Shown here piece after piece: positions 4,003 to 24,382 of a DNA stretch of 26,374 bases. The DNA is from a virus: IMG/VR virus record IMGVR_UViG_3300009311_000021, positions 1 through 26,374 of that record; one strand, 5' to 3'. Numbering within the stretch: the stretch's first letter is position 1; each line of letters starts with the position of its first letter. The notes under the pieces are model-generated. The model saw only the letters and a program-made list of their open reading frames with translations. It did no database searches and was not told the DNA's origin. A program made the position numbers and the translations under genes.

Positions 4003-4908
4003 CTATATGATGATCGATGCCGCGCCGTCGCCGTAGGGCTTATCGCCGTAGGCGAGCTTGTAGAGCGCGTCCATCTCCTTTAGTGCCTCGAGGCGGCCCG
4101 GATTGGCCTTGTCCGGGTGGTTGAACGGGTGATCCTTGTCTCCCCGGATCATTGCGATGTTGCTCTGCGCCTCCTGCGGGGTGAGTTTCAGCGAGGGCTT
4201 GGGCTGGCCGTCGGCAAGTGTGTCTTCGCTGAGCTTGGCTCCCAAGTCGGCGAACAGCTTCACGATCGGTACCTCCTGGTGCAGGCCGCGTGATTGCATG
4301 AACTCGGCAAAGTCCCGGCCGCCCAGCCGTGCGACGCGGTTGGCCAGCTTCAGCCGCTCTTCGTACGCCTCGCCCCACTCCCGGCGCAGGCCCTGGAACG
4401 CCTCTGCGACCGCCTGCCGGCGCTGGGTGGCGGTCTGCGTAAAGGCGTCGGCCGCGCTCTTGACGCGACGCTCCCAAAACGCCTGGGCGTGATCCGCGCT
4501 GATCCCCTGCTCGTGCGCCCATTTTCTGAACGCCTGCTCTTCTTCAGCATCGTACGAGAAGCCCTCGGGCATATCGTCGATCGGTCCCAGCTCGTAGCCG
4601 GCCGGATCCTCGGGGCGGCCCAGCTGGGTGTAGTACTCGGCGATCTGCTCGGGGGTGGCGTCCTTTCCCGGCTTTACGATCGGGTTGCCGCCCAGCTTCT
4701 TTTCCAGGTTGATGTAGCTCTTGACGACCTCGGAAAACTCCTTGCCGTTGAACCGCTCCATGGCCGGCAGTGCCGCCACGTCGTCGGGCAGATGCCGGCG
4801 CCAGTCGGCCAGGAGGTTTGGCTCTCCTCCTCCGCCATCTCCATCGCCGCCGTCCCCATCGCTTGAGTTACCCGAGCTGCCGCCCGGACCCAGTAGATTG
4901 TCGTTCAT
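4003..4908 (-). CDS. Capsid assembly scaffolding protein
   Basis: 301 aa, strongly acidic and helical. It starts with a Gly/Asp/Ser-rich tail (residues ~8-30). The motif GKEFSEVVKSYINLEKKLGG follows, then LGRPEDPAGYEL, a classic signature of podovirus scaffold proteins. A long charged helical region (EEEQAFRKWAHEQGIS through EEWGEAYEERLKL-type sequence) comes next, and the C-terminus is Lys/Asp rich. It directly precedes the major capsid gene, as scaffolds do. It would act inside the procapsid and leave before or during DNA entry. The role rests on the signature motif and gene order. Confidence 0.85.
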   Translation of the reverse strand: MNDNLLGPGGSSGNSSDGDGGDGDGGGGEPNLLADWRRHLPDDVAALPAMERFNGKEFSEVVKSYINLEKKLGGNPIVKPGKDATPEQIAEYYTQLGRPEDPAGYELGPIDDMPEGFSYDAEEEQAFRKWAHEQGISADHAQAFWERRVKSAADAFTQTATQRRQAVAEAFQGLRREWGEAYEERLKLANRVARLGGRDFAEFMQSRGLHQEVPIVKLFADLGAKLSEDTLADGQPKPSLKLTPQEAQSNIAMIRGDKDHPFNHPDKANPGRLEALKEMDALYKLAYGDKPYGDGAASIII

Positions 4909-7906: not shown

Positions 7907-9535
7907 CTATGCGGCCTCCCTGGGTCGGGCGGCGGCCAGGTCTTTGGCGGCGCCGGCGGCGCTCTCGGCCTGCTGCAGCTTGACGGCCTGCTCCCGGACC
8001 TTGCGGCGGGCGTCGCGGATCTTCTTCACGGCGTCCTCGGATCGCATCATGTCCGCCGGCGATCCTTCCACCTCGGCCAGTTCCCGTATGGCGACGTCGG
8101 GATCCACATTGTCCAGCACGTCCGGCAGCTTCTCGCTCCAGTCCAGGGCGGTGGCAACCACGCGGTCGATCGCCTGCACTTCGCTGAGCCGCTGCGCCCT
8201 GGCCAGCGGGGATACATAGCGCATCCGGGGCTGACCGCCGCTGTCCTTGAGCTTTTCCGGCATATCCTCCAGCTCTCCGGCCCGGCCCAGGATGCCAATG
8301 ATGCGGTAGACCAGGCGCTCCAGAAACTCACTCTGGAGACGGTCGAACGTGGGTCCCAGGATCATGGCGTTTTCCAGGGTGCGGGTGCGGACCTCTTCGG
8401 CCGTCATCTCGCGCCGGTCGATCAGGGACAGCTGCGTGACCAGGTAGCCGTCGCGGATGTCGTCTGCCTGGCGCTCGATCATCTCAAGGGTGATGGGCAG
8501 ATGGGCGCCCAGCAGGATCGGCTCGACGCGGTCCCGGGTGCCCGACTCGTAGTGGTTGACGCCGTTTGGCGTCAGATCCGGGTCGTCATCCATGTCGCTG
8601 GGAACATTGACCGGCGGCTCGGCCACCCGGTTGCCCGCCCGGATGAGGGTCTTTTTCATCTTGTTGAGCGTCTTGATGTCGGCCAGGTTGTTCAGCGAGG
8701 GGCTGCGGCCGTAGATCTCGCCGGCGGCCCTGGACCAGGACGGCATCATGTAGGGGAACTCAAAGTAGCCGGACTCGCGGATGACCGACTTGTGCTTCAC
8801 GTCCACGTATACGCTGGCGTATCTGGCCTCTTTGGGATTGTCCGTACCCTTGATCACGTCGCGTTCCTTGCGCGGATAGACGCAGTGCAGGACCTGGAAC
8901 TTCTCGGTGGGTTTTTCCTTTGCGGCCTTTATGACGTCGTCGGAGAGCCGGCCGGGGGTGACGGATTCCTCTCCCCACTTTTCCAGCATCTGGTCGGCGG
9001 TCATCTCGTAGGCCCTGAAGATGGTCTCGATCTCCCCCTGCTCGGACTCCATCGCGCAGACCTCGGCGATGTGGCGGGTGGAAAAGTACAGCTTGCGGCC
9101 GGAGCCTCGGTATTCCTCACAGTACATCGGGGAGGATCCGATGGACCCCAGGTCCAGATACAGCTCATGCACCTGGGAGTAGAAGTTGGAATTTTCCAGC
9201 TCCCGGCGGATCTTCTTGGTGAGCGCCTCCAGCCATTTCTTGATCGTGCTGTCCTTGTTCAGCTCCTCGATGTCGGTCTCCAGGATGAACCACTTGGTGG
9301 AGCGGTTGGTCAGGGTGCTGTTCAAGGCGGCCGCCAGGCGGGCGTTGGCCTTTGGGGCGGTGTCGTCATAGAGGGTGGTGGTGGCCCGGCGCGCTCCGGG
9401 CGTCTCCTCTCGCTCCACGGGTGCGCGGCCCGGCATCACATAGTCGATGATCTCCTGCCAGGTGGTCTGCCAGGTGCTGCGGTCCGATCGCAGGGACTCG
9501 TTTAGCGCGATGAGGTATGAGGCGTCCGCTTTCAT
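7907..9535 (-). CDS. Portal / head-tail connector protein
   Basis: 542 aa, normal for the T7 gp8-type connector family. Visible landmarks are an N-terminal helix with WQEIIDYVMPGR, the motif LYDDTAPKANARLAAALNSTLTNR cut over ~55-75, and SSPMYCEEYRG. The central FPYMMPSWSRAAGEIYGRSP follows, then LNNLADIKTLNKMKK, MTAEEVRTRTLENAMILGP and the C-terminal wing helix with VSPLARAQRL. The last ~60 residues are charged and helical. Twelve copies would form the DNA channel at one capsid vertex and bind terminase and the gp11-like ring. The start overlaps the end of the upstream 369-aa gene by 4 nt. The assignment is secure from motifs and neighbours. Confidence 0.92.
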   Translation of the reverse strand: MKADASYLIALNESLRSDRSTWQTTWQEIIDYVMPGRAPVEREETPGARRATTTLYDDTAPKANARLAAALNSTLTNRSTKWFILETDIEELNKDSTIKKWLEALTKKIRRELENSNFYSQVHELYLDLGSIGSSPMYCEEYRGSGRKLYFSTRHIAEVCAMESEQGEIETIFRAYEMTADQMLEKWGEESVTPGRLSDDVIKAAKEKPTEKFQVLHCVYPRKERDVIKGTDNPKEARYASVYVDVKHKSVIRESGYFEFPYMMPSWSRAAGEIYGRSPSLNNLADIKTLNKMKKTLIRAGNRVAEPPVNVPSDMDDDPDLTPNGVNHYESGTRDRVEPILLGAHLPITLEMIERQADDIRDGYLVTQLSLIDRREMTAEEVRTRTLENAMILGPTFDRLQSEFLERLVYRIIGILGRAGELEDMPEKLKDSGGQPRMRYVSPLARAQRLSEVQAIDRVVATALDWSEKLPDVLDNVDPDVAIRELAEVEGSPADMMRSEDAVKKIRDARRKVREQAVKLQQAESAAGAAKDLAAARPREAA

Positions 9536-14227: not shown

Positions 14228-14488
14228 TCACTCCTCTCCGATCGTACTCTCGACGGCGACCTGGACCGCCATGACGGCCCTGGTCGCCTGGTTCTGGCCG
14301 TTGCAGGCCTCGGCCTCGACCTCCAGTCGGTCGACCAGCTGTTGCTTGAAGACTGCCACGTCATCGCCGGATCCGGCCGGCTTCGGCATCTCATCCAACC
14401 GGGCCTCCAGCTCCTCGATCCTCATCTTGGCCCAGGTCGCTTGCTCTTCCAGCTGGCTAACCTTCTCCCTCAATTCCTTCTCTGCCAT
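14228..14488 (-). CDS. Small coiled-coil protein, unknown
   Basis: 86 aa from the ATG at 14488, with GGAGG spaced 6 nt before it; an ATG at 14494 is too close to that site. The first half is heptad-like (KELREKVSQLEEQ, then RIEELEARLDEM), followed by a loop and a second helix. Residues LEARLDEMPKPAGSGDDV are encoded by one copy of a 54-bp repeat whose other copy lies in the chimeric gene at 14693-14839. Function is unknown. Confidence 0.65.
   Translation of the reverse strand: MAEKELREKVSQLEEQATWAKMRIEELEARLDEMPKPAGSGDDVAVFKQQLVDRLEVEAEACNGQNQATRAVMAVQVAVESTIGEE
14357..14410. repeat. 54-bp direct repeat, copy A
   Basis: Identical over 54 bp to 14708-14761, and exactly 18 codons in frame in both host genes. 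Perfect identity argues for a recent duplication or gene conversion. Confidence 0.95.
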
Positions 14489-14490
14489 TG

Positions 14491-14691
14491 TCATCCTCCG
14501 CCATTGACCGCATTGTCGATCAGTTCATTGTACTCATCCCACGTGCTGAACGACGTGGGACGGCCGTCGTCTGTCGTTGCGTTGCCGTGATAGGCAGCCA
14601 CAAAAGCATCCAAGCCGTGCTTGCCGTAGTGAGTCGGGTTGCCCTCGGCATGGGTGATGAATCCCATCGGATCGTCGGTCTCCAGCAGCAT
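14491..14691 (-). CDS. Small protein, unknown
   Basis: 66 aa starting MLLETDDPMGFITHAEGNPT. I chose the ATG at 14691 because it sits two bases after the stop of the chimeric gene, with GAGGGG just upstream. A longer reading that runs into the 54-bp repeat in another frame is not convincing. The sequence has one aromatic-rich acidic stretch (DAFVAAYHGNATTDD, then FSTWDEYNELIDN). No family is recognised. It overlaps the coiled-coil gene by 4 nt. Confidence 0.6.
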   Translation of the reverse strand: MLLETDDPMGFITHAEGNPTHYGKHGLDAFVAAYHGNATTDDGRPTSFSTWDEYNELIDNAVNGGG

Positions 14692-14692
14692 C

Positions 14693-14839
14693 TCACCCCT
14701 CGGTCCGCACGTCATCGCCGGATCCGGCCGGCTTCGGCATCTCATCCAACCGGGCCTCCAGGTCGTAGAACATCTCCTTGCTAATCCCGAGATAATCGAG
14801 TATCCTCTTTCTCCCGATCAAGACCTTTGATTCCGTCAT
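14693..14839 (-). pseudogene. Truncated AlpA-like HTH fused to a coiled-coil gene fragment
   Basis: 48 aa, translated by hand, with a strong TAGGAGGG ribosome site. Residues 1-27 (MTESKVLIGRKRILDYLGIS, then KEMFYDL) parallel the start of the intact HTH protein at 13216-13440 (MTNSKALIGRRAISDFLRIS, then HNTFYKL). Where that protein goes on into its wing, this one switches to LEARLDEMPKPAGSGDDV, supplied by the 54-bp repeat from the coiled-coil gene, and stops four codons later. The frame is open, so a small product may be made, but the DNA-binding wing is lost. It opens the leftward late operon. Confidence 0.7.
14708..14761. repeat. 54-bp direct repeat, copy B
   Basis: Second copy of the repeat at 14357-14410, offset by 351 bp and forming the 3' part of the chimeric HTH gene. 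Confidence 0.95.
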
Positions 14840-14870: not shown

Positions 14871-14940
14871 TGTCAACATCACCGGAAATAGGCCGAAAAG
14901 TTGACATATAAGTCGTTATCAGACGTAACGCCATCATCGA
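14871..14940. promoter_or_regulatory. Operator-like region, repeat element copy 1
   Basis: TGTCAAC (14871-14877) and GTTGACA (14900-14906) form a perfect 7-bp inverted repeat. The stretch from 14896 on, with TTATCAGACGTAA, is repeated imperfectly at 15426-15474. It lies upstream of the leftward late block, so control of that block is plausible. Confidence 0.45.
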
Positions 14941-15147
14941 CCTACCGGAAACGCCAGAATCCGGGAGATATCGGCAGATCGTGAGCTCGTGAAATCTTCA
15001 TTCTCGGTGAATTGAACCATCCGCCTATTATCCCCTATTTCACCGTAATCGCCTGACACCTGCCATATTCCGGATTTCATCCTCAGATCAGATCCCAGAA
15101 CGACGAAAACACGCGATATCGCTTGATAATCAGAGATCAGCCCACAA

Positions 15148-15243
15148 TCAGGCCCGTATCGCATCCGGAACGGCCGCCAGACGATCCGCGACCCGGGCTT
15201 GTGCTTTGATCCCTTCCAGTGTCAGACTTGTGTTCAGTACCAT
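15148..15243 (-). CDS. Possible tiny gene, unknown
   Basis: 31 aa beginning MVLNTSLTLEGIKAQARVAD, translated by hand. It has an exceptionally strong ribosome site (AGAGGAGGTGATC) ahead of the ATG, and that is the main support. It stands alone in an otherwise gene-free region. It could be a leader peptide or the start of a gene that was truncated. The following ~300 bases to 14840 show only regulatory-type repeats. Confidence 0.35.
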   Translation of the reverse strand: MVLNTSLTLEGIKAQARVADRLAAVPDAIRA

Positions 15244-15280
15244 CCTCGATCACCTCCTCTCGCCAGATTGCCGTTGATCG

Positions 15281-15292
15281 CCGCGATCGCGG
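15281..15292. repeat. 12-bp perfect palindrome
   Basis: CCGCGATCGCGG lies ~40 bp upstream of the tiny gene's start. Just beyond it, two copies of CG(T/C)GTAATTGA occur (about 15313-15345). This is a possible protein-binding site. Confidence 0.5.
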
Positions 15293-15425
15293 TCAATGTG
15301 GCCTCTCAGAATCGTGTAATTGAGGCCTTGAAACGCGTAATTGAACGCCTCGATAACGCCTTCGATCATTGATAATCTCTGCCAATTCTCACACTTGTAA
15401 TTATTTCACTAACTTAAGGTACTCA

Positions 15426-15474
15426 AAAAGTTTACATAAAGAAGTATTATCAGACGTAAACGCCATTTTCGGCC
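15426..15474. promoter_or_regulatory. Operator-like region, repeat element copy 2
   Basis: An imperfect copy of 14896-14940 that shares AAAAGTT, ACATA, TTATCAGACGTAA and CGCCAT with 2 extra bases. It contains the inverted repeat GTTTAC (15430-15435) / GTAAAC (15456-15461). It lies between the candidate origin and the late block. Confidence 0.45.
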
Positions 15475-15632
15475 AAATCCGTGTAATTCCAATGACACGT
15501 CAAAATCCGCCGCGCTCCCCCTCCTTTTCTCCCGAGAAATACTGCCCAGGAGTGGACGTCTCGTGCATAATGTCCGTGCTTCTGAGCGTCGCCGGCCTGG
15601 ATCTATGCTCTGCTACCCACCGCTATGCTGCT

Positions 15633-15944
15633 GCGACCAATTCTGATGCTGGCCGACCAATTGGTGACCAGTTTCTGGCGCTGAATTGGTCGCCCACATC
15701 ACCAACGATCCCAGCTGCTTAGATGCCGTGCGACCAACAAGACCAACTTTTTCGCACTTCCCTATATGTGTGCTGCGATCGAGTGCCATCTCTCTCTCTT
15801 ATTACTTCTCTACGTTATCTTTTTCGTAAAAAGTGGTCTAATTGGTCGCATGGCCAGAACATACTGATATTACTACGAATCCAGCGACCAACTATGGTTG
15901 AGAAATTGGTCGCAAATTGGTCACATTCTCTGAAAAGTGGTCGC
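15633..15944. other. Iteron cluster, candidate replication origin
   Basis: About eleven copies of (A)ATTGGTCGC or close variants occur in both orientations. Clear ones are at 15633-15642, 15655-15666 (a palindromic double site around ACCAATTGGT), 15684-15693, 15730-15738, 15741-15747, 15832-15838, 15840-15849, 15884-15892, 15904-15913, 15915-15924 and 15936-15944. An AT-rich, pyrimidine-run segment (about 15788-15832) splits the cluster. It lies in a ~970-bp gene-free zone (15244-16217) beside the primase-helicase gene. Iterons plus an AT-rich core next to a replication gene is the usual layout of a phage or plasmid origin. An operator cluster is the alternative. Confidence 0.6.
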
Positions 15945-16135
15945 CGACAGGTCTGGGCATAAACCATTTGAGAGTGGGGGAGAGCGGGGGCGGCGCTGGC
16001 GCCGGCAACAACAAAGCCTCCCCTCGTTTCTTTCTTCATAAGCTAATTCCTCAGATCTGGTGGTTTGCGGTGCGAATCGTCCGCAGATGATGTGCCGGCG
16101 ACAGGCTCTTGCGAAGCGCGAGAGGACGCATAGAA

Positions 16136-16158
16136 GGTCCAGGGCTGCGCCCTGGGCC
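16136..16158 (-). terminator. Hairpin downstream of the primase-helicase gene
   Basis: GGTCCAGGGC-TGC-GCCCTGGGCC forms a 10-bp stem with one G-U pair, about 60 nt after the primase-helicase stop. No clear T-run follows on the minus strand, so it may act as a weak or factor-assisted terminator, or simply bound the origin. Confidence 0.45.
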
Positions 16159-16217
16159 ATTTATATGGTGTAACCCTCGCTGTCTGTATTCGTTTGTCAA
16201 ATGGTTGCTATGTGGCC

Positions 16218-18767
16218 TCATTTCGGCGCCAGGCCCTCCTCTCCGACCACGGGCGCCTTCAGGCCGATGCCCTGGAACACGCGCTGCCGATCGGGTCCCA
16301 GTCGACGCGATGCCATCGAGGGGCAGTTCAGCTTCACCTGGGAGTAGAAGTTGTTGCGCGCCAGGGGTCTGTTGTTGCCCTCATCGCACCACTTCGTATA
16401 GTCGCGGTACAGCGCCGGCGGCTTGACCTGGCAGTCCTCGTCGACCACGCAGCACTCCTCCAGGTACAGCAGCAGCGGGTTCATGGCCTTGAGCAGGTCC
16501 TCGGTGTCCCTCAGTACCGAGTCCGGGGTGGCCAGGGAGCCGAGGCTCAGCACCGTCTTCAGGCCATCGAGCATCCACATGAAGATGCCGTCGCGCTCCT
16601 CGCGCAGCTTGCTGGTCAGCATCGGATCGAAGCCCTTCATTCCCGGCTCAAAGCGCTTCTCAAACTTGATCACGATCGGGCGGCGTTGGAATCCGTGGCT
16701 CTTGTCGGCGATCTTCGGCACCTCGTTCATCGAGAAGATGTGCTTGGCCACCGGGTAGAACTTGTACGGATCCCCGTGCTTGCGATCGGCGGTGAGCAGT
16801 CCGCCGGCCACGGCGTCCTTGAAGTTGCTTGTCTCGATCACCTGGGTGGTGGCGATCTCGGTGGCCACGTTCACCAGCTTGTCCTTCAGCTCCCCGATCA
16901 GGAACCGCTGGCCCATGAGCTGCAGGGGCAGGGAGCAGACGTTGTCCTCGCCCAGGATCGCTATCAGCGTGTCACAGGCCACCGATTTGCCGTTGGCACC
17001 GGATCCCACGAGAAACAGGCACTGCTGGAACCGGCAGTCCTGCAGCAGCGTGTAGCCGAAGTAGGCCTGCATGGCCCCTACCTTGTCGAGGTTGTCCTCA
17101 AACACATCGTGCAGGAACTGCACCCATCGGGGGCATTTGGCCTCTTCATCGTAGTATATCGGCAGCTGGATCCGGCTCAGAAACTTAGGGTCATGCGGGA
17201 ACATCTCGCCGGTCTCGATCTCCAGCATTCCGTTCTGCAGGTTCAGATGCTGAGTGGTCGGTTTCAAGTCCTGGGGCTTTTGCATCCGACGCTTGGCCAG
17301 GAGCTTGGTGGTCGAGTCGATCTGCTGATTGGTAGAGTACTTTCCCATCGCTTTGTCCGCGTCCTTTCCGATGAGATCCGGGTGGACGGTACTCCATACG
17401 CCACTGTCCATGTAGCGGTAGAAGTCGCCACCGTCCCATACGATTGGGGATAAAAGTTTATCCAGGTACCGTGCCAGGTACTTGCTTCTGAAGTTCTTGC
17501 CGTTCTCACCATCGAAGAACCACTCCGGGTCAACATCATGGGGTGGGGGGACGTCGGGGGTGGTCTCCTCCAGCTCGGTATCCAGAGGGGATGAATCTCG
17601 ATTCTTCTTGGATCGATAATTCGGATCGTACCCCTCGCAGAACTGCACGATCTTGTCGTCGCCGGAGATCTTCTGGCGGGCATCTCTCCAGGTGAAGGAG
17701 CGGCACGAGTTGTGGAAGCACTGGTAGAGCAGCGTCCCGTTGTGCAGCTGGATGATCGAGGCTTCTTGCTTGTGATTTGGATCGAACAGGCAGGAATCGA
17801 GGCAGTACAGAGTGCCTTTATCGTCCGTTTTGACCCGGTACGGCATTCCGTAGTGGCCCAGGTACTTTTCAACGTCGACTGGTCCGAGATCGGCCTCGCC
17901 AGATCGTCGAGGTTGAGCCTTCTCGGGTCTCCGCTTGTGATTGGTTGCGGAATCCCCGGCGGCCGCTGGCGCCTCTTTGACGGCCTCTGAGGCCAGTTTC
18001 TGCAAAAACGCCTCTGAACACGGCGACACATCCCCTTTCACGCGCAACCGGTCCTCATCAGGAACCTCGATCCACTTGTCATGGATGAATGCGCGCCTGT
18101 GGGGCCGGTGTTTGGTGCTGTCGCCCTTGCGGGCGGTCGTGCCGTACAGCTTCCAGATCCTGGCCGGGTTGAAAACCTTGCGGTCGATGTCCACCTGGTC
18201 GTTGGTCCACCGGTCGGCGATCGCGTTGACGCACCGCTTGACCAGGACCTCGGTTTCTTCCGTGTTGGGCAGGTCCGGCATCCGGTAGAGCATATGGCTG
18301 CCGTTCCCGGAGATCGCGGGGATCCCGCCGGCCGCTCCCATCTCGTGCAGGCCGTGCGAGATCTGATTTCTCAGCTCCCAGGAGGCCCGAAACTCCTCCT
18401 GGGTCGACGATATGTCGCTGTCCGGGCGGATGGGGTCCAGGTCGACCGGCAGCCATCGGATGCACTTGATGTCCTTGTCGGCACTGGTCTTGCTCTTCTT
18501 GCCCGACGCCTTCAACCGATTCGCTGACCTGGCCAGTAGGTCCTCGATGACCGGGTTGAGGGTGAAGTACACCGCCCTGGGCTTTTGCGCCTCCAGGGCC
18601 TCGGCTGCTCGGCCAAACACTTCGGCATTGTCAAAGTAGCCGTATACGATCCCCTCACCCGATGCGAATCCTTCCCAGGCCGGGTTGAGCCTCGAAAGAC
18701 CAAATGCTCGGATCTCTACCACTTCGCCAGGATCGAAGAACAGGTTGTACACATCCGCGCAGCGCAT
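16218..18767 (-). CDS. Replicative primase-helicase (AEP-type primase + SF3 helicase)
   Basis: 849 aa; AAGGA precedes the ATG. The N-terminal third is an archaeo-eukaryotic-type primase: CIRWLPVDLDPIRPD at ~103-117 carries the acidic DxD metal pair, and ISGNGSHMLYRMPDL at ~153-167 the nearby catalytic loop. A Cys/His cluster around 330-370 (CLDSCLFDPNH, then CFHNSCRSF) may bind zinc. The C-terminal half is a D5/P4-alpha-like SF3 helicase, with Walker A FLVGSGANGKS at ~585-595, an acidic Walker B-like VNVATEIA and the sensor FSMNEVPKI. It would unwind and prime the phage origin and leave elongation to the host polymerase. The candidate iteron origin lies just downstream of the gene. Confidence 0.88.
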   Translation of the reverse strand: MRCADVYNLFFDPGEVVEIRAFGLSRLNPAWEGFASGEGIVYGYFDNAEVFGRAAEALEAQKPRAVYFTLNPVIEDLLARSANRLKASGKKSKTSADKDIKCIRWLPVDLDPIRPDSDISSTQEEFRASWELRNQISHGLHEMGAAGGIPAISGNGSHMLYRMPDLPNTEETEVLVKRCVNAIADRWTNDQVDIDRKVFNPARIWKLYGTTARKGDSTKHRPHRRAFIHDKWIEVPDEDRLRVKGDVSPCSEAFLQKLASEAVKEAPAAAGDSATNHKRRPEKAQPRRSGEADLGPVDVEKYLGHYGMPYRVKTDDKGTLYCLDSCLFDPNHKQEASIIQLHNGTLLYQCFHNSCRSFTWRDARQKISGDDKIVQFCEGYDPNYRSKKNRDSSPLDTELEETTPDVPPPHDVDPEWFFDGENGKNFRSKYLARYLDKLLSPIVWDGGDFYRYMDSGVWSTVHPDLIGKDADKAMGKYSTNQQIDSTTKLLAKRRMQKPQDLKPTTQHLNLQNGMLEIETGEMFPHDPKFLSRIQLPIYYDEEAKCPRWVQFLHDVFEDNLDKVGAMQAYFGYTLLQDCRFQQCLFLVGSGANGKSVACDTLIAILGEDNVCSLPLQLMGQRFLIGELKDKLVNVATEIATTQVIETSNFKDAVAGGLLTADRKHGDPYKFYPVAKHIFSMNEVPKIADKSHGFQRRPIVIKFEKRFEPGMKGFDPMLTSKLREERDGIFMWMLDGLKTVLSLGSLATPDSVLRDTEDLLKAMNPLLLYLEECCVVDEDCQVKPPALYRDYTKWCDEGNNRPLARNNFYSQVKLNCPSMASRRLGPDRQRVFQGIGLKAPVVGEEGLAPK

Positions 18768-23621: not shown

Positions 23622-23721
23622 AGCACAGCTTGAGAAGGGTGTGCTTTCTTTCGTAAAACGCAGCCCCTTGCAACATGCCGGACAACTCAATAGTGGTTCC
23701 GGTATCGACCAAGGGGCTTTT
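23622..23721 (+). terminator. Two hairpins in the NYN-int leader, attenuator-like
   Basis: AGCACA (23622-23627) / TGTGCT (23640-23645) is followed by TTCTTTC. AGCCCCTTG (23662-23670) / CAAGGGGCT (23710-23718) is a perfect 9-bp stem followed by TTTTC, with an inner CCGGA/TCCGG stem. Both lie between the promoter candidate and the start codon, so they could end transcripts before the NYN and int genes. Confidence 0.5.
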
Positions 23722-23740
23722 CATTTCTGCAGGGGGTGAT

Positions 23741-24382
23741 ATGCGACGAGTGGTCTTTGTTATCGATGGCTGGTTCATGCGAAAACGCATCTACAAGCTG
23801 AAATCCTTCTTCTACAACGGCGAGAACATTAGGAAGTATTGCTTTAGTCATCTTAGGGAGGGCGACACTCTCTACCGGATCTTCTACTATGACACAGAGC
23901 CATTGAACATGAAGGGCACGAACCCCATATCCAAGAAGACCGTTGACTTTCGCACTACCAAAGTGGCCGTCAAGCAGAACGCACTATTGGACTCTATCAA
24001 GCGTACGCCCAACTTTGCCCTTCGGTTAGGCCAAACAGAATGGACCATGAGGGACTGGGAGCTGAAATCCGGCGCTCTGAAAGCTCTGCTCAACAAGACC
24101 ATAACCGTCGACCAGTTGACGGAAAACGATATCTCCCCGAGGATAGGTCAAAAAGCCGTCGACATGAAGATAGGGCTGGATATCGCCTTCATGGCCACGA
24201 AGGGCGTCGCCGACCTACTGATAATCATTACCGGCGATTCTGATATCGTACCTGCCCTCAAGTTCGCCAGGCGAGAAGGAATGCAAGTCGGCCTCGATTC
24301 TCTCCATAGCCCGATCAAAGCTCAACTCTCTGAACACATCGACTTCTGGAATACTAAGGTGCTGGCACCGAAGAGACAGTAA
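23741..24382 (+). CDS. NYN (LabA/DUF88-like) domain protein, probable RNase
   Basis: 213 aa from the ATG at 23741, chosen because AGGGGGTGAT precedes it; an upstream in-frame start at 23675 lies in the hairpin leader. The fold is PIN-like: RRVVFVIDGWFMRKRI at the start supplies the first Asp, and VDMKIGLDIAFMATKGVADLLIIITGDSD split over ~145-175 supplies the next acidic residues (VDMKIGLD, then TGDSDIVPALKFARREG). Such proteins are metal-dependent RNases or nucleic-acid processing factors. It ends 4 nt before the integrase gene, an unusual pairing that suggests joint control or a role during integration or defence. Confidence 0.8.
   Translation: MRRVVFVIDGWFMRKRIYKLKSFFYNGENIRKYCFSHLREGDTLYRIFYYDTEPLNMKGTNPISKKTVDFRTTKVAVKQNALLDSIKRTPNFALRLGQTEWTMRDWELKSGALKALLNKTITVDQLTENDISPRIGQKAVDMKIGLDIAFMATKGVADLLIIITGDSDIVPALKFARREGMQVGLDSLHSPIKAQLSEHIDFWNTKVLAPKRQ

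Follow-up and report, generated by a model that had tools for sequence, protein, structure and literature searches.

The window analysed here, the whole of IMG/VR record IMGVR_UViG_3300009311_000021 (26,374 bp), carries genes for a terminase large subunit, a head-tail adaptor, a protease and an integrase, which indicate a temperate tailed phage. An array of short repeats at 15633-15944 is adjoined, as described in an earlier note on this DNA, by a primase-helicase gene on the minus strand (16218-18767). The first sites lie ~275 bp past the stop codon of this gene with no family-supported gene in between. Small ORFs overlapping the region match no family, in agreement with the claim that the array is non-coding, and neither an Rfam search nor BLASTN against named phages returned a match. 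The array separates the replication genes from the late genes (peptidase, terminase), all of which lie on the same strand.

The primase-helicase (849 aa) combines D5_N with a DUF5906/primase_Cterm SF3 helicase of the P4 family and scores 219 bits against the curated P4-family primase_Cterm model (TIGR01613; cut-off 108.7). A C-terminal winged helix (RFX_DNA_binding/Pox_D5) spans residues ~761-826. The helicase half was modelled with a pLDDT of 88.7, and the best fold match of the model, ahead of other D5-type hexamers, was the SaPI5 primase-helicase (7ola; E 1e-24), which was also matched by sequence (E 1e-13). The protein is thus a homolog of the SaPI helicases and is the presumed initiator that reads the repeats.

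Two further observations were made in the window. A gene at 23675-24382, adjoining the integrase gene, encodes an NYN-domain (nuclease-like) protein of a PHROG family of unknown function. A near-identical contig (L007) is without ~350 bp of window 14396-14760; a 14-bp direct repeat (CAACCGGGCCTCCA) flanks both ends of this segment, so a repeat-mediated deletion within the same phage population is likely.

Repeat sites and mirror geometry

Sites were located with a simple script of our own. With up to 2 mismatches, AATTGGTCGC has 27 matches in 26,374 bp, a number about equal to that in shuffles, and 11 of the 27 fall within the 312 bp at 15633-15944 (binomial P ~7e-15); with up to 1 mismatch, 8 of the 9 matches in the window fall there. 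In an unsupervised 7-mer scan the strongest cluster of the window was CGACCAA (7 copies, score 12.7; runner-up 7.1). About eleven motifs in both orientations had been proposed earlier; the clustering and both orientations were recovered, and counting by the GACCA core raises the number to twelve, in 15635-15942. The features are as follows.

16218 to 18767, minus strand: primase-helicase, 849 aa
15633 to 15944: predicted origin of replication; six mirror pairs of GACCA-core iterons (12 in all) about a centre at ~15789
15938 to 15942, minus strand: iteron 1, outermost of the gene-proximal half (GCGACCACTT)
15918 to 15922, minus strand: iteron 2 (GTGACCAATT)
15907 to 15911, minus strand: iteron 3 (GCGACCAATT)
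15886 to 15890, plus strand: iteron 4, reversed (GCGACCAACT)
15843 to 15847, minus strand: iteron 5, inner tandem pair (GCGACCAATT)
15834 to 15838, minus strand: iteron 6, inner tandem pair, 9 bp pitch (TAGACCACTT)
15746 to 15833: 88-bp core separating the inner pairs; rich in purines on the gene strand; presumed site of melting
15741 to 15745, plus strand: iteron 7, mirrors iteron 6 (AAGACCAACT)
15732 to 15736, plus strand: iteron 8, mirrors iteron 5 (GCGACCAACA)
15687 to 15691, minus strand: iteron 9, mirrors iteron 4 (GCGACCAATT)
15666 to 15670, plus strand: iteron 10, mirrors iteron 3 (GTGACCAGTT)
15655 to 15659, plus strand: iteron 11, mirrors iteron 2 (CCGACCAATT)
15635 to 15639, plus strand: iteron 12, mirrors iteron 1 (GCGACCAATT)

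The twelve sites form six mirror pairs around a single centre at window ~15789. Read towards the core, each half has the strand order + + + - + + and spacings of 20, 11, 21, 43 and 9 bp, with 45 in place of 43 bp in the far (right) half. In gene orientation, with the sign giving the strand, the gene-proximal sites lie +276, +296, +307, -328, +371 and +380 bp past the stop codon and the far-half sites -473, -482, +527, -548, -559 and -579. Six mirror pairs arose in 0 of 40,000 gap-and-strand permutations of all 14 detected sites and in 6 of 40,000 permutations of the 12 sites; the centres of inner and outer pairs differ slightly, and a tolerance of 1 understates the dyad. Both tandem pairs noted earlier are real. 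The palindromic double site (15653-15668) is incidental in part, since its plus arm (AATTGGTGAC) has no GACCA core.

Spacer identity between the two halves of the window array is 24%, which is the random level. Because the halves share sites and not spacers, the array is neither a plain palindrome nor a recent inverted duplication. The core (15746-15833) is ~60% AT against 48% for the region and lies below the 70-90% of several relatives; its description as AT-rich holds relative to its surroundings and not in absolute terms.

Recurrence beside related helicases

About 45 viral loci were collected by protein search. Among relatives the motif cluster of the window was seen only in the near-identical contig L007, and the AATTGGTCGC cluster was absent from L005, L006 and L008. 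Lack of motif conservation in relatives had been put forward as grounds for refuting an origin. The motif is indeed not conserved, yet place, order and spacing persist while the sequence varies from relative to relative, so the motif-conservation test would have wrongly rejected the origin reading. Exact motif conservation was dropped as a criterion; unsupervised search found a motif of its own in each of L005, L006 and L008.

Of the 600-bp tiles, the one adjoining the 3' end of the helicase gene scored highest in 18 of 30 loci (2.3 expected), 16 of them with a shuffle P<=0.01, and other tile positions were without enrichment. Among non-coding gaps, 13 of the 17 that follow the helicase gene on its 3' side had a site cluster (score >=5), versus 4 of 48 gaps elsewhere (Fisher 2.5e-7); L049, whose gene end in the tile test is doubtful, was left out of this gap control. 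Clusters 3' of the helicase gene were found in named phages of Streptococcus, Mycobacterium, Staphylococcus epidermidis and Halorubrum. None was found in this position in Arthrobacter DrSierra, Microbacterium GardenState or one faecal phage, and about 12 of the 30 loci with related helicases, among them some that are ~40% identical (L018-L020), had no detectable cluster 3' of the gene. The same was true of 2 kb searched in L067, a 53% relative.

The half geometry of L014 (GAACA) and L012 (GAGCA) matches the 20/11/21/43/9 of the window; L010 (GAACA) has the window geometry except for one site, and L005 has it in the left half and the inner right pair. Spacing is kept where sequence is not, since these geometries match while spacers are only 17-48% identical between window and relatives, as they are 24% identical between the two halves. 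Across the whole viral collection the exact six-site geometry, with the middle base left free, was found in four contigs only, all in the clade of the window. Two tandem pairs in mutually inverted orientation, one on each side of a core, were present in 13 of 22 loci (1.9 expected); the mirror-pair test alone reached P<0.05 in only 8 of the 22. Same-strand spacings followed a period of 10.5-10.75 bp (0 of 300 null), separately in the clade and in the distant loci, in which the sites are predicted.

The helicase cores of L010 and L012 are 94% identical and their winged helices 81%, and almost every site differs in the middle base of the motif (GAACA vs GAGCA). The two proteins have an identical presumed recognition helix and differ in the wing that follows it; our guess is that the wing reads the middle base. 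Such pairs of near-identical helicases with differing motifs are natural swap experiments on the retargeting of a winged helix at a dozen sites at once. By Mantel test, motif similarity was correlated with winged-helix identity (r 0.22) and with helicase-core identity (r 0.17). The test is significant and not specific: the winged helix is not singled out as the motif reader, because the helicase-core correlation nearly equals its own.

Three further features of the relatives were recorded. In L067 a small separate gene for a Pox_D5/RFX-type winged helix begins at ~4269, directly after the primase-helicase gene, and its product is perhaps a stand-alone origin-binding or decoy protein. A dense dual-orientation GCGTTTA cluster occurs ~1.7 kb after the helicase gene in L018 (7001-7182; also L017, 3203-3384); not being at the 3' end of the gene, it is possibly a displaced origin. 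In L005 and L010 a part homologous to the N-terminus of the window protein lies upstream of the helicase ORF and in a different frame; the two loci may therefore encode primase and helicase separately.

Origin reading and alternatives

The array is very probably a phage replication origin, predicted to be bound by the adjoining primase-helicase through its C-terminal winged helix. This reading is the best supported because the array lies 3' of an SF3 primase-helicase gene, has mirror-symmetric phased sites around a core and recurs beside homologous helicases; the proposal in the earlier note of an iteron-type, protein-bound origin is upheld on these grounds. The starting points were observed (sites, mirror geometry, helical phasing, 3' position, domain make-up and recurrence with changing motifs), and the steps that follow are modelled on work with P4, SaPI and SCCmec. 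The C-terminal winged helix of the primase-helicase would bind the iterons, and six helix-phased sites per side would place helicase subunits on either side of the core, oriented towards one another. An SF3 ring would form on each side, and the two rings would melt the core as the first DNA to open, and prime it. Travelling outwards from initiation at this place, the two rings would give two forks, one in each direction. GC skew across the window had no clean switch at the array and is uninformative.

An operator array, with a phage repressor or activator on the repeats controlling early or late transcription, would suit the position between replication and late genes on one strand and the presence of a repressor-like gene in the phage (22557-23024). 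No sigma-70-like promoter was found within 14900-16300 and the motif is absent just upstream of the repressor gene, and the reading was rejected on these two counts. Six mirror pairs with a fixed 20/11/21/43/9 spacing and tandem pairs that face each other around a core are moreover not an operator layout, and the array accompanies the SF3 helicase gene across unrelated genomes; control of transcription is an improbable role for it.

A structure-based origin of the kind proposed for pRN1 and phage BIP-1, in which an extruded stem-loop 3' of the gene is recognised and the repeats are hairpin arms, would have the same position relative to the gene. The single-stranded fold of the region beats shuffles (z -5.3), and the core is flanked by 30-nt arms that are 80% complementary. 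This complementarity is mainly within the sites, as expected of any mirror array, and the spacers stand at the random level of identity given above. The reading was rejected since z -5.3 is what a mirror array gives and the spacers are unmatched; fixed spacing and helical phasing suit a protein on duplex DNA, and recognition of a hairpin is accordingly highly improbable. A role in packaging (pac/cos) or in partition, with the small terminase or a ParB-like protein on the repeats, could be argued from the terminase genes ~2.5-3.5 kb away on the same strand, and is the hardest to credit, as across loci the array goes with the helicase gene and not with the terminase genes and no ParA/ParB was found among the subset of ORFs tested.

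For phages with D5/P4-type helicases, the predicted origin yields a rule for origin finding, namely to search the DNA directly 3' of the gene for a dyad made of any short repeat; the rule looks for layout rather than for a known sequence.

Comparison with known systems

Primase-helicases with an SF3 helicase and a winged helix and with an origin 3' of the gene are also known from pRN1 (ORF904) and phage BIP-1. In pRN1 the origin lies 3' of the gene and a stem-loop is thought to be recognised, and no specific binding of ORF904 downstream of its gene was detected (PMC4234260). These systems have a stem-loop and no iterons, whereas the window has twelve iterons and non-complementary spacers. In SCCmec the D5_N helicase Cch2 uses its C-terminal domain to bind AAGTG iterons that lie immediately past the 3' end of its gene (PMC7581432). 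Like the window protein, Cch2 is a D5_N/Primase_Cterm helicase with repeats directly 3' of its own gene; its AAGTG core is present in two window sites, the window having AAAAGTGGTC twice. SCCmec differs in having three direct repeats only, no dyad and a separate polymerase-primase.

The origin of SaPI/PICI elements lies immediately 3' of rep, consists of two iteron sets around an AT-rich region, was tested on plasmids and was regarded by the PICI authors as having an organisation not shared with any other bacterial replicon then known (PMC6092414). As in the pri-rep-ori order of SaPIbov1, SaPI5 and EcCICFT073, the predicted window origin is immediately 3' of the helicase gene, two iteron sets flank a relatively AT-rich core (60% AT), and the helicase would be of the self-loading type with a C-terminal DNA-binding domain; the likeness is to the published description and not to a site-by-site dyad or spacing. 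Where PICIs are without structural genes and depend on a helper phage, the window array sits in a temperate phage with its own terminase, head-tail adaptor, protease and integrase genes and is therefore not classed as a PICI. The best reading is that the origin is of the PICI/SaPI and P4 kind, here in tailed phages, which extends to ordinary temperate phages an organisation thought peculiar to PICI satellites. The suggestion that such an origin was not described for this group does not hold for SaPI/PICI satellites or, in related form, for P4; it stands for tailed phages with this gene, for which no description was found in the open-access literature. Judged on the same literature, three points seem to be new: the dyad in its exact form, how widely it occurs in phages, and the suggestion that P4 ori1 and crr are a separated dyad.

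The two elements of satellite phage P4 were taken from its annotated record (L068).

4291 to 4590: P4 crr
9310 to 9413: P4 ori1

The mapped ori1 of P4 has GGTGAACA sites in the order + + + - + + at 10/11/22/43/10, followed by AT-rich DNA. It corresponds to one six-site half, with order and strands as in each half of the window dyad; its outermost site is one turn closer than that of the window, and spacings otherwise differ by 3 bp or less. The type I iteron GGTGAACA holds the GAACA core of the clade of the window. P4 crr is directly 3' of alpha, and its repeats begin - - + at 9 and 43 after AT-rich DNA; it thus opens like the other half of the window dyad, first an inner pair and then a reversed site. 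In P4 the two elements are ~4.7 kb apart and crr is duplicated, whereas the window has both halves in a single contiguous dyad, which would therefore work like the P4 layout but is not classed as it. The chance probability of the ori1 match in order and strand with four spacings within 3 bp is ~3e-4, a value that is suggestive and no proof.

The split ori1 and crr of P4 may, we suggest from this agreement, be a separated dyad. A wider proposal is put forward tentatively, as a possibility that we rate somewhat below even: SF3 primase-helicase replicons (phages, satellites and some archaeal viruses) might derive their origins from a single ancestral plan, a dyad of helically phased iterons 3' of the initiator gene, in which the motif drifts with the initiator while order and spacing stay fixed, with P4 ori1 and crr as halves pulled apart. 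The comparison gives a testable reason for the puzzling requirement of P4 for two distant elements.
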